From Bacteroidales bacterium (GTDB lineage: Bacteria > Bacteroidota > Bacteroidia > Bacteroidales > FEN-979), in contig JAUXWT010000096.1 in assembly GCA_030681475.1 (NCBI GenBank), forward strand, positions 1 to 64,000: DNA of 64,000 nt, written 5' to 3'. Position numbers and translations under genes: made by a program. How positions within the stretch are numbered: the first letter of the stretch is position 1; each line of letters begins with the position of its first letter. Shown piece by piece: positions 15,225 through 46,828 of this stretch. A model generated the notes under the pieces. The model was not told where the DNA came from, made no database searches, and saw only the letters and a list, made by a program, of their open reading frames with translations.

Positions 15225-15316
15225 CCTCTCTGTGGCTCTCTGTGGCTCCTCTGTGAACTCTGTGTAACAAATAATTACACTGAGAACCACAGAGAAGACA
15301 CTGAGAACCACAGAGA
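15225..15316 (+). repeat. Left repeat block of the decayed GxxExxY locus
   Basis: A forward run of CTCTCTGTGG-type decamers (15225-15267) is followed by an inverted copy (15276-15316, CACTGAGAACCACAGAGAAG units), giving a potential hairpin. The inverted copy faces the right-hand block at 15534-15580, so the gene remnant lies between inverted repeats, as at the intact GxxExxY locus at 40938-41407. Confidence 0.8.
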
Positions 15317-15329
15317 AAAATATTGTGTT

Positions 15330-15526
15330 ATGGAACTTAACCGGATTATGGTTACAGGATAGACATTCTTGTGGAAAAAACAGTGATTGTTGAACTAAAA
15401 ACAATAGAGCTATTTTCTCCGATTCATGAAGCTCAAATACTGACCTATATGAAGTTTGCACAAAAAAGTAATGGTCTGTTGATCAACTTTAATGTAACCG
15501 TACTCAAAAATGGAATCAGGAGATAA
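15330..15526 (+). pseudogene. GxxExxY-family gene remnant with internal deletion
   Basis: An ATG at 15330 opens MELNRIMVTG and then hits a stop at 15360. This resembles the usual start of the family (MELNRITG). A different frame from 15365 to the stop at 15526 reads ILVEKTVIVELKT, then HEAQILTYMKFA and GLLINFNVTVLKNGIRR. That is clearly homologous to the C-terminal half of the intact copy (MVESRIIVEIKS, HLAQILTYLKLS, GLLVNFNVSSLKKGIRR). About 60-70 codons are missing in the middle, including the GxxExxY motif itself and the catalytic Asp; the ExK pair is kept. It is a dead copy. Confidence 0.85.
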
Positions 15527-15533
15527 AAATATA

Positions 15534-15580
15534 AACTCTGTGGCTCTCTGTGGCTTCTCTGTGTCTCTCTGTGTAATAAA
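15534..15580 (+). repeat. Right repeat block of the decayed GxxExxY locus
   Basis: CTCTGTGG/CTCTCTGTG-type units start eight bases after the remnant's stop codon. They are a direct copy of the block at 15225-15267 and an imperfect inverted copy of the block at 15276-15316. From here to the MraZ operator at 15716 I see no other feature. Confidence 0.8.
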
Positions 15581-40937: not shown

Positions 40938-40977
40938 AACCACGAAGGACACAAAGTACTGCACGGAGGACACAAAG
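40938..40977 (+). repeat. Left 40-bp inverted repeat of the GxxExxY cassette
   Basis: It begins AACCACGAAGGACACAAAG and pairs with the reverse complement of 41368-41407 with three mismatches in 40. It contains internal 9-bp phrases (CACGAAGGA, CACAAAG). Its inner end lies nine bases beyond the GxxExxY stop codon. Confidence 0.92.
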
Positions 40978-40986
40978 ATTCATTAA

Positions 40987-41358
40987 TCAGATTATTACTC
41001 TTCGGATCCCTTTTTTTAGTGAACTAACGTTGAAATTTACAAGTAGCCCGAGATGGAGCTTTGATAACTTCAGGTATGTAAGGATTTGCGCCAGGTGAAC
41101 ATCATTGAGCGCCTCCACTGATTTTATTTCCACAATGATCCGGCTTTCAACCATCAGATCAATTCTGTATCCAATTTCCATGATTTCTCCGTCATAGACC
41201 AGGGGCATGGACTTTTGTCTCTCGACACGCAAACCTGCTTTCCTAAGCTCAAATACTAAGCATTCTTCATAAGCGCTTTCCAGTAATCCTGGACCAAGGC
41301 TTGAATGCATCCTGAAAGAACAATCCAGTAGCAACTTAAAAATCTGCTCATCATTCAT
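40987..41358 (-). CDS. GxxExxY-family protein, putative PD-(D/E)XK nuclease fold
   Basis: 123 residues from the ATG at 41358, chosen because an unusually strong Shine-Dalgarno (AAGGAGGTGAT) precedes it and because the upstream in-frame extension translates the flanking repeat. The name-giving motif GLLESAY is at residues 24-30. Asp67 (RIDLMVE) and the Glu77-x-Lys79 pair (VEIKS) match a PD-(D/E)XK core, as in the PDDEXK_3 family. Function is unknown; family members are usually single small genes. The gene lies between 40-bp inverted repeats that start nine bases from each end of the reading frame. A dead relative lies at 15330-15526. Confidence 0.9.
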   Translation of the reverse strand: MNDEQIFKLLLDCSFRMHSSLGPGLLESAYEECLVFELRKAGLRVERQKSMPLVYDGEIMEIGYRIDLMVESRIIVEIKSVEALNDVHLAQILTYLKLSKLHLGLLVNFNVSSLKKGIRRVII

Positions 41359-41367
41359 TATCACCTC

Positions 41368-41407
41368 CTTTGTGTCCTTCGTGCAGTACTTTGTGCCCTT
41401 TGTGGTT
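41368..41407 (-). repeat. Right 40-bp inverted repeat of the GxxExxY cassette
   Basis: Inverted partner of 40938-40977 with three mismatches in 40. Its inner end supplies part of the Shine-Dalgarno of the GxxExxY gene. Its outer end lies ten bases from the stop codon of the YifB/ComM gene. Confidence 0.92.
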
Positions 41408-41417
41408 AAATAAATAA

Positions 41418-42956
41418 TCATCTCCCCCAACTGTCCCTGTCCAGCGACCGGTAATTGATCGCTTCTGCCAGGTGTTCCAACTGGATGTCTGCGGATTGAT
41501 CAAGGTCGGCAATGGTTCTCGAGACTTTCAGGATCCTGTCATATGCACGGGCTGAGAGCCCCAGTTTTTCCATAGCTGTTTTTAACAATTGATTTCCGGT
41601 ATCAGAGATCCTGCATACATCCCGCAACATTCTTGAAGGAATTTGTGCGTTGCTGTGGATCTTCTCCATCCCCTCAAAACGTTTGCCCTGGATTTGCCTT
41701 GCCCTTATCACTCTCTCCCTGATGACGTTGCTGTATTCTGTCGGCCGGGTATCACTCAACCGTTTAAAATCGACAGGTACCACTTCAATATGGATATCGA
41801 TACGGTCAAACAGCGGTCCGGAGATCCGGTTGATATATTTCTGCACCTCACCCGATTTGCACTGGCAGGCAATGGTCGGATGGTTGTAATATCCGCAGGG
41901 GCAAGGGTTCATTGCGGCGATCAACATGAAACTGGCTGGAAATTCCAGGGTCATCTTAGCCCTGGAAATGGTCACCAGGCGATCTTCCATGGGTTGCCGG
42001 AGCACTTCCAGAACTGTACGTTTAAACTCCGGCAATTCATCGAGGAACAGCACGCCGTTATGGGCAAGCGATATCTCCCCCGGCTGTGGAATGCTCCCCC
42101 CACCAACCAGGGCCATATCGGAAATCGTATGATGCGGAGCCCTGAAGGGTCTCATCGAAACCAACGACCTGTGGCTCCCTAATTTACCCGCTACTGAGTG
42201 TATCTTTGTGGTTTCCAAAGCCTCCTGCTGGTTCAATGGGGGCAGAATGGATGGTATTCGTTTTGCCAGCATCGTTTTACCAGCCCCGGGCGGCCCGATT
42301 AAAATAACATTATGCCCTCCGGCAGCCCCGATCTCCAGCGCTCTTTTTATGTTCTCTTGTCCGCGCACATCCGCAAAATCGTGTTCAAAGTGAATGGCCT
42401 TCCTTGTTTGATCCCCATAAGACTCCATCCTGGTCGGGGATAATTGCCCCTGATCGTTGAAAAATCCGATCACCTCCGTAATCGCAGTAATACCATATAC
42501 TTCAAGCTCGCTTACGATCGATGCCTCCCGCGCATTCTGCAATGGCAGCAGAATTCCCTTAAAACCCCTATCCCGTGCCTCAAGGGCGATGGGAAGGGCT
42601 CCTTTGATCGGCAACAATCCTCCGTCAAGGGATAGTTCCCCCATGATCATGTATTTTTCCAGCTTCTCTGTTTTGATGACCCCATTTGCTGCAAGGATCC
42701 CCATAGCTATCGTCAGATCGTACGAAGAGCCTTCCTTACGGATATCGGCAGGCGCCATGTTAATGATGATCTTTTTTCCCGGAATACGCTGGCCGTTGTT
42801 ACGCAGCGCGGATTCAATCCGTTGATGACTCTCCTTCACAGCATTATCAGGCAGTCCGACCATAAAAAACTGAATTCCCTGGTCCATATATACCTCAACC
42901 GTAACTGTAATGGCTTTGATGCCGAATACAGCGCTTCCATATGTCTTTACAAGCAT
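41418..42956 (-). CDS. comM: YifB/ComM-family Mg-chelatase-like AAA+ ATPase
   Basis: 512 residues from the ATG at 42956 ([20 protein letters not shown]), the standard family start. A longer frame would translate a C-rich repeat ([10 protein letters not shown]) and is rejected. Residues ~1-170 are the Lon-like ChlI domain ([14 protein letters not shown]). The AAA+ domain follows, with Walker [16 protein letters not shown], Walker [12 protein letters not shown] and a zinc-like cluster ([14 protein letters not shown]). The C-terminal Mg-chelatase domain has [19 protein letters not shown]. In ComM-type proteins this is a hexameric branch-migration helicase that aids integration of incoming DNA during transformation; that role is inferred. 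Confidence 0.93.
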
Positions 42957-43026
42957 GATCAAGCAGTTTATAATGGTTAATCGGAAAAACGGGAAAAGGT
43001 AATACGGAAATTTGGGAAAGTTATTA

Positions 43027-43114
43027 ACAGGGGGACAGGGGGACAGGGGGACAGGGGGACAGGGGGACAGGGGGACAAGGGGACAAGGGGACAAGGGGAC
43101 GGGGGGACAGGCGG
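43027..43114 (+). repeat. 8-bp G-rich tandem array (ACAGGGGG)
   Basis: Eleven octamers: six ACAGGGGG, three ACAAGGGG and two diverged copies. The plus strand carries runs of four to six G separated by three or four bases, a strong G-quadruplex pattern. It sits between gldB and comM, both on the minus strand. The same phrase occurs at 31125-31172. Confidence 0.93.
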
Positions 43115-43155
43115 ACTGCAAACTGCTGACTGCCGACTGCTGACTGCTGACTGGA
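43114..43155 (+). repeat. 7-bp tandem array (GACTGCT) next to the G-rich array
   Basis: GACTGCA, AACTGCT, GACTGCC, GACTGCT, GACTGCT, GACTGGA: six heptamers directly abutting the octamer array and ending ten bases before the gldB stop codon. Confidence 0.9.
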
Positions 43156-45127: not shown

Positions 45128-46828
45128 ATGAGAATTGCCCTGGCTCAGTTGAATTATCATGTTGGCGATTTCGTGAACAATGTTTCGCGGATCACAGAAG
45201 CTATTGAGAAAGCCAAAGCACAACAGGCTGATCTGGTCATTTTTGCCGAACTTTCAATATGCGGCTACCCACCGCGGGATTTCCTTGAATTCGATGATTT
45301 TATACGGCGGTGCAACGAGGCTGTTGCCTCGATCGCCGGCAAATGCCAGGGTATCGCGGCCATCGTTGGCGCCCCTTCAAAAAATACCGCCCCAAAAGGA
45401 AAACCATTGTACAATACGGCTTATTTTCTGGCTGACGGGAAAATTCTTGCCAAAGTTCATAAAACGCTGCTTCCGAATTACGATGTGTTCGATGAATACA
45501 GGTATTTTGAACCGAACAGGCTTCCGTATATGGTTACAGAATACCAGGGATATCGCTTTGCAGTGACGATATGCGAAGACCTGTGGAATATTTCCGATGA
45601 TCCGCTTTATGTGCGCAACCCGATGGACGAACTGGCCAAACTGAACCCGGACTTCCTCATCAATATCGCGGCCTCGCCATTCAGTTATAATCAGGCTGAG
45701 ATCAGGCGTGAAGTCCTGTCACGGAATGCACGAACCTATTCCCTGCCGGCGGTTTATGTAAACCAGGTTGGCGGACAAACAGAACTTATTTTCGACGGAG
45801 GTTCGATGGTCGTTGATTCACAGGGAGAAGTAGTTGCGGCATTGAATGAATTTGAGGAAGATCTGCTTGTCTGGGAAATGCCGAATGCAAAATGCAAAAT
45901 GCAAAATGCAAAACCGGAGGTCACAGAGCCGGTAAATCATCAAATCTTCAAATCTTCAAATCATCAAATCTTCAAATCATCAAATCATCAAATTCCGTTG
46001 ATAAACTCCGCCCTGACCCTGGGAATTAAGGATTATTTCGGGAAAATGGGCTTTTCCAGGGCTGTCGTCGGGTTATCAGGTGGGATAGATTCAGCGGTCA
46101 CGCTGGTGTTGGCCGCGAATGCTCTTGGAAATGAGAATGTAAGGGCTGTTTTGCTGCCATCACAGTACTCCTCTGATCACAGCATTGCAGATGCAGTGTC
46201 GCTGGCCGGCAATCTTAATGTTCAATACGACATCATACCGATTGAGGATGCCTATCATTCAATCGGGAAAGCGCTTCAGCCACATTTTGCAGGATTGCCG
46301 TTCAACCTTGCCGAAGAGAACATCCAGGCCAGGATCCGTGCAGTCATTCTCATGGCAATTTCCAATAAATTCGGCCATATCCTGCTTAACACTTCCAATA
46401 AAAGTGAAGCGGCAGTTGGCTTCGGTACCCTCTATGGCGACATGTGTGGGGGATTATCCGTGCTTGGAGATGTATATAAAACACAGGTGTATGAGTTAGC
46501 GCGTTTCATTAACAAAGACAGGGAGATCATTCCCCTGAATTCGATTTTGAAACCGCCTTCTGCCGAATTGCGTCCCGACCAGAAAGATTCGGATTCGCTG
46601 CCTGACTATGAGATCCTCGACCAGGTGCTGTACCTGTATATTGAACAACGAAAAGGTCCGGATGATCTTATCGCGGCAGGTTTTGATGAAAGTGTGGTGC
46701 AAAGAGTACTTAAACTTGTCAATACCACCGAACACAAACGCCATCAAACCCCTCCTATTTTGCGGGTTTCGCCTAAGGCGTTCGGCATGGGGCGCCGGAT
46801 GCCCATTGTGGCGAAATATTTATCGTAA
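45128..46828 (+). CDS. nadE: NadE, glutamine-dependent NAD+ synthetase
   Basis: 566 residues. The N-terminal nitrilase-type glutaminase (~1-250) has the Glu-Lys-Cys triad in FAELSICGYPP, KTLLPNYDVFDEYRYF and VTICEDLW. The C-terminal synthetase (~295-566) has the PP-loop GLSGGIDSAVTLVLA, NTSNKSEAAVGFGTLYGDM and PSAELRPDQKDSDSLPDYE. It amidates nicotinate adenine dinucleotide using ammonia channelled from glutamine. Residues ~253-289 are written by two short tandem arrays (period 7, then period 8) and read NAKCKMQNAK and two NHQIFKSS units. They sit exactly in the interdomain linker. Confidence 0.95.
   Translation: MRIALAQLNYHVGDFVNNVSRITEAIEKAKAQQADLVIFAELSICGYPPRDFLEFDDFIRRCNEAVASIAGKCQGIAAIVGAPSKNTAPKGKPLYNTAYFLADGKILAKVHKTLLPNYDVFDEYRYFEPNRLPYMVTEYQGYRFAVTICEDLWNISDDPLYVRNPMDELAKLNPDFLINIAASPFSYNQAEIRREVLSRNARTYSLPAVYVNQVGGQTELIFDGGSMVVDSQGEVVAALNEFEEDLLVWEMPNAKCKMQNAKPEVTEPVNHQIFKSSNHQIFKSSNHQIPLINSALTLGIKDYFGKMGFSRAVVGLSGGIDSAVTLVLAANALGNENVRAVLLPSQYSSDHSIADAVSLAGNLNVQYDIIPIEDAYHSIGKALQPHFAGLPFNLAEENIQARIRAVILMAISNKFGHILLNTSNKSEAAVGFGTLYGDMCGGLSVLGDVYKTQVYELARFINKDREIIPLNSILKPPSAELRPDQKDSDSLPDYEILDQVLYLYIEQRKGPDDLIAAGFDESVVQRVLKLVNTTEHKRHQTPPILRVSPKAFGMGRRMPIVAKYLS
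45884..45994 (+). repeat. Heptamer and octamer arrays in the nadE interdomain linker
   Basis: Four AATGCAA heptamers (45884-45911) and seven CAAATCTT/CAAATCAT octamers (45941-45994), separated by about 29 bases, all in frame and without stops. The translation repeats every 7 or 8 residues accordingly. Confidence 0.93.

Follow-up and report, generated by a model that had tools for sequence, protein, structure and literature searches.

Is a small GxxExxY gene, enclosed between two nearly identical inverted repeats in a Bacteroidales genome, part of a mobile element, and if so, of what kind? The locus lies in a 64,000-nt stretch of DNA (positions 1 to 64,000 of contig JAUXWT010000096.1, assembly GCA_030681475.1), hereafter the window. 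To our knowledge, the family to which the gene belongs (TIGR04256/PF13366; GxxExxY, PDDEXK_3) has no described function. The features of the window that bear on the question are the following.

40938-40977, plus strand: left arm, AACCACGAAGGACACAAAGTACTGCACGGAGGACACAAAG, with four units at 40941-40947, 40950-40956, 40962-40968, and 40971-40977, spaced 9, 12, and 9
40987-41358, minus strand: GxxExxY gene, 123 aa, predicted PD-(D/E)XK (Cas4/RecB-like) nuclease (TIGR04256, PF13366, AlphaFold2 model, and fold matches)
41360-41371, minus strand: Shine-Dalgarno AAAGGAGGTGAT, read from the sequence, its first four bases belonging to the right arm
41368-41407, minus strand: right arm, an inverted copy of the left arm with identical layout and matching spacers
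15228-15573, no strand assigned: second, decayed cassette with CACAGAG-type units and a GxxExxY remnant within 15308-15523
15228-15255 (minus), 15278-15315 (plus), and 15536-15573 (minus): arrays of the decayed cassette, in the order array, array, gene remnant, array

The two 40-nt arms, which lie 390 nt apart, are complementary at 37 of 40 positions (93%), as a preliminary description of the locus had reported. By our arithmetic, random sequence would yield such an inverted match within 1 kb about 1e-11 times per 64 kb. The gene runs from an ATG at 41358 to a stop that ends at 40987, and these coordinates bear out the gap of nine bases between the gene and either arm. AAAGGAGGTGAT starts inside the right arm, which does therefore contribute part of the Shine-Dalgarno. 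The arms are not the plain terminal repeats for which they had been taken. Each is a phased array in which four 7-bp units with the consensus CRCNNAG are spaced 9-12-9 bp, and such arrays are specific to each protein lineage.

Profile searches leave no doubt about the identity proposed for the gene. The window protein scores 142.9 bits against TIGR04256 (cut-off 35, E 5e-42) and 139.1 against PF13366 (cut-off 22, E 1.1e-40). Across 65 GxxExxY proteins, the invariant columns are G22, G24, E27, Y30, D67, E77-x-K79, and Q91. The nearest structure to the AlphaFold2 model (pLDDT 96) in Foldseek is Cas4 SSO0001 (4ic1; probability 1.00, E 6e-3), for which VIA gives a Z of 10.1 over 98 residues. Holliday junction resolvases and restriction enzymes follow with lower, less telling Z scores. 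Cas4 profiles match 19 of the 65 relatives weakly (best 7e-6) and leave the window protein unmatched. By motif and modeled fold, the protein fits the PD-(D/E)XK superfamily, nearest to the Cas4/RecB type, and nuclease activity is predicted. The Cas4/RecB family (AddB, AdnAB, lambda exonuclease) has the closest fold and shares with GxxExxY proteins the motif order E, D, ExK, QxxxY. Cas4 differs in its four Fe-S cysteines, which are absent from the 65-protein alignment (no cysteine is invariant, and C33 alone is conserved at 90% or above); GxxExxY proteins also lack Cas neighbors and are minimal in size. A sequence search of the PDB found no relative of the window protein, PADLOC matched it to no defence family, and the viral contigs that we searched held no relatives.

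The gene is widespread, and so are its arms. Of 19 genomes of the genus, 12 carry TIGR04256, as do 152 of 296 sampled Bacteroidota. We compiled 137 non-redundant GxxExxY loci, mainly from Bacteroidota and occasionally from other phyla, and most of them carry traces of arms of the four-unit type. When upstream flanks were aligned with reverse-complemented downstream flanks, the mean local score was 34.1 for a locus's own flanks, compared with 18.3 for those of other loci and 15.8 for shuffled sequence. Two or more strict units occur on both sides in 68 of the 137 loci; at the remainder, arms are degenerate, one-sided, or of another type, and several loci have none. Arms are also present in Verrucomicrobia, a Planctomycetota MAG, Ignavibacteria, and a Bacteroides plasmid, and GxxExxY loci of Gemmatirosa and Sphingomonas have arrays on one side only. 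On a Fusobacteria plasmid (L359), the gene is flanked by similar sequences as direct, not inverted, repeats. An Rfam search of eight cassette or array loci returned no family match.

Inward-facing units occur near GxxExxY genes at 12.7 times background density, with spacings concentrated at 9-10 and 21 (137 loci). Among the 52 recognizable four-unit arms of relatives, spacings of 10-11-10 and 9-12-9 are commonest; the two outer spacings match in 41, and the center spacing exceeds both outer ones in 44. Either pattern places units 1 and 3, and units 2 and 4, 21 bp apart, and a separation of exactly 21 bp between units 1 and 3 is seen in 29 of the 52. Since 21 bp corresponds to two turns of B-DNA, this phase suggests that each arm is contacted by two dimers on the same face of the DNA. 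A general 16-mer repeat, in which unit 1 equals unit 3 and unit 2 equals unit 4, was rejected: it is true of the window arm but fails on average over four-unit arms.

Unit sequence varies by locus (CACAGAG, CACGAAG, CGCAGAG, CACAATAG, and others), yet it matches between both arms of one locus. Furthermore, arm similarity follows protein identity (Spearman 0.46 over all pairs), and the relationship persists below 75% identity (Spearman 0.44; none of 500 permutations as high). Mapped onto the protein tree, the type of arm unit changes 34 times, compared with a minimum of 47 among 200 shuffles. Thus, at the level of sequence, arms and protein behave as one co-varying unit, which indicates that gene and arms travel together. 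Note that this correlation does not amount to proof of recognition, because common descent in one lineage yields it too.

We compared four conserved sites among relatives: one after comM, which holds the window cassette, one after a map-like gene in a Flavobacterium-like genus, and the sites C54 and C65. At each of them, relatives have unlike cassette types, remnants, scars or gene-less palindromes, and vacant sites; these filled and empty sites come from draft genomes, one per species, whose divergence is too large to define exact junctions or a target-site duplication. Among congeners, the comM site has the same cassette in G011, a different one in G016 and G013, and remnants or nothing elsewhere. 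G013 carries a gene-less palindrome at both C54 and C65. The map-like-gene and C54 sites have been re-occupied by unrelated cassettes, and vacant examples of the former (L321, L330, and L331) lack any array. Cassettes of the CACGAAG family lie at C65 in this genome, and G001 and G018 carry them at C54, with proteins 78% and 77% identical, respectively, to that at C65; this genome's own C54 cassette encodes a protein just 43 to 44% identical to those two. Some Flavobacterium cassettes of one type keep one site across species and could be old and vertical. In two Flavobacterium-like genomes (L309 and L312), a remnant of an array precedes a different palindrome, CCTGCAAGGTTTTCAAAACCTTGTAGG, at the cassette site. 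DNA identity between the window cassette and that of G011 is 84%, compared with 73% for comM, which suggests transfer after the species split. A 45-bp motif beside the cassettes at C54 and C65, considered as an element end, probably acts as promoter for the gene downstream, judged by eye.

This genome contains 10 copies or remnants of GxxExxY, and pattern and region searches gave dozens of sites with arrays. The triple-unit array pattern has 74 matches and its reversed form 2. GxxExxY-positive congeners have 2 to 99 matches and negative congeners 0 to 4; beyond the genus, no match occurs in 20 sampled negative genomes or, under the strict pattern, in many positive ones. One cassette family comprises the intact copy at C65 and five shortened copies elsewhere in the genome. 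Three of the five, at dispersed places, carry an identical internal deletion, as if copied after the deletion arose. Other arrays are gene-less palindromes with short spacers (L285 and L286). We also observed a dispersed short gene-less element (L010-L020 and L284-L286) with ends GAGGGTGTCTCAAAAG and a pair of inverted four-unit arrays separated by about 22 bp. Conserved sequence extends beyond the arms in some dispersed array families, one of which has terminal repeats of its own, GAGGGTGTCTCAAAAG; some arrays may therefore move as passengers. Because 50 to 100 bp outside the arms are common to some families, the moving unit may also be longer than 470 bp.

Further copies and empty sites, for which the preliminary description had proposed to look, were both found, the copies in this genome and in relatives, the empty sites in relatives. 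The pattern that it named as speaking against mobility, the same gene with the same flanks at the same place in all relatives, is not what we see, as congener sites differ in content. Comparison of these sequences establishes that fixed positions between genes have acquired, lost, and exchanged cassettes and that gene-less derivatives have dispersed. Mobility is well supported by the same, unrelated, gene-less, or missing cassettes at the four sites together with the dispersed deleted copies. The unit had been proposed to be a non-autonomous mobile element: 'mobile' stands, whereas 'non-autonomous' is unsupported for a unit with an intact nuclease gene that retains all motif residues.

We consider it fairly probable that the 470-bp unit exemplifies a widespread, minimal, RAYT/REP-like mobile element in which a Cas4/RecB-like nuclease gene lies between inverted four-unit arms that its own nuclease reads. 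We infer that the nuclease drives mobility. By analogy with RAYT proteins acting on REP sequences, the nuclease, probably multimeric, would recognize its own arms by their phased units, pair the two arms or read a hairpin formed by them, and cut there; host repair or recombination would then copy the unit, and shortened copies, into new sites. We know of no strand-transfer activity in a lone PD-(D/E)XK nuclease, so movement must depend on the host or another enzyme. More tentatively, and as a possibility that we would not yet bet on, GxxExxY cassettes may represent a novel type of mobile element in prokaryotes, occurring in roughly half of the Bacteroidota sampled as well as in other phyla, and spreading with one 120-residue Cas4/RecB-like nuclease but without any transposase or recombinase. 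This enzyme would read two 21-bp unit pairs per arm and co-evolve with them, and gene-less arrays would be derivatives mobilized in trans.

An unlikely but serious alternative is a homing-type parasite. Homing enzymes of the PD-(D/E)XK type are known, and here the nuclease would cut an unoccupied gene-less palindromic array, into which the gene would be copied by double-strand-break repair; the two matched arms would then derive from one palindrome split by the gene. Palindromes that lack the gene and have short spacers do exist, both in this genome and at two sites in G013, and the same sites have been occupied anew by unrelated cassettes. However, some gene-less copies retain gene remnants and one common deletion, which means that there the gene was lost, not yet to be gained. 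Related cassettes also sit at different sites in sister genomes, and some vacant sites have no array.

We doubt that the gene is instead a passenger, or a gene useful to the host, that other elements and homologous recombination move, with arms that act as operator or terminator or are hairpins kept alike by template switching. Such an account could draw on the arrays inside elements with their own terminal repeats, on recombination through flanking genes, which could bring either cassette type to the comM site, and on the frequent position of arms just past a stop codon (within 15 nt in 29 of 84 3'-end neighbors). It is at odds with the co-variation of protein and arm, the deleted copies dispersed in the genome, and a layout that recurs with diverse neighbors in several phyla. 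An ordinary vertical gene with flanks inverted by chance or local duplication, and losses only, is hardly credible despite the one-type Flavobacterium cassettes at a common site, being already contradicted by site comparisons in which one site has unrelated cassettes, related cassettes occupy different sites, and copies are dispersed in one genome.

The RAYT/REP-like reading can be set against described systems. RAYT/REP elements (PMC2817692) are likewise small single-gene units between inverted short repeats, each protein lineage is matched with a particular repeat type, and repeats and doublets lacking the gene are scattered between genes. They differ in that RAYTs are HUH tyrosine transposases related to IS200/IS605, whereas PD-(D/E)XK is the only domain found in GxxExxY proteins, and in that REPs are palindromic, GC-rich, and headed by GT(A/G)G, whereas the GxxExxY arm consists of four phased, mostly non-palindromic units. 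Pfam found no HUH (Transposase_17) domain in the window protein and nothing but PF13366. MITEs and insertion sequences likewise have terminal inverted repeats and dispersed copies with internal deletions; in contrast to their repeats, GxxExxY arms are lineage-specific arrays. The 470-bp unit has no DDE or other known transposase, its sole ORF being PDDEXK_3. We found no description linking GxxExxY to inverted phased arrays in the open-access literature searched, where the literal repeat strings gave chance matches only. Going by that literature, the GxxExxY cassette looks like an undescribed minimal mobile element.

Our findings give GxxExxY proteins, found in half of sampled Bacteroidota without a known role, a candidate role via lineage-specific phased arrays. 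These arrays explain the common CACAGAG- and CACGAAG-like intergenic repeats, as well as repeat-coded N-termini that arise from start sites called too early. As side observations in the window, the ORF of the comM homologue reaches upstream into a repetitive coding stretch (42950-43121), probably a false N-terminus, and an NAD synthetase-like ORF (45128-46828) has an in-frame repetitive insert (NAKCKMQNAK..., NHQIFKSSNHQIFKSS). The cassettes point to a possible nuclease-only route of gene mobility beside RAYTs and homing enzymes, and they may have a bearing on the origin of Cas4-like nucleases.
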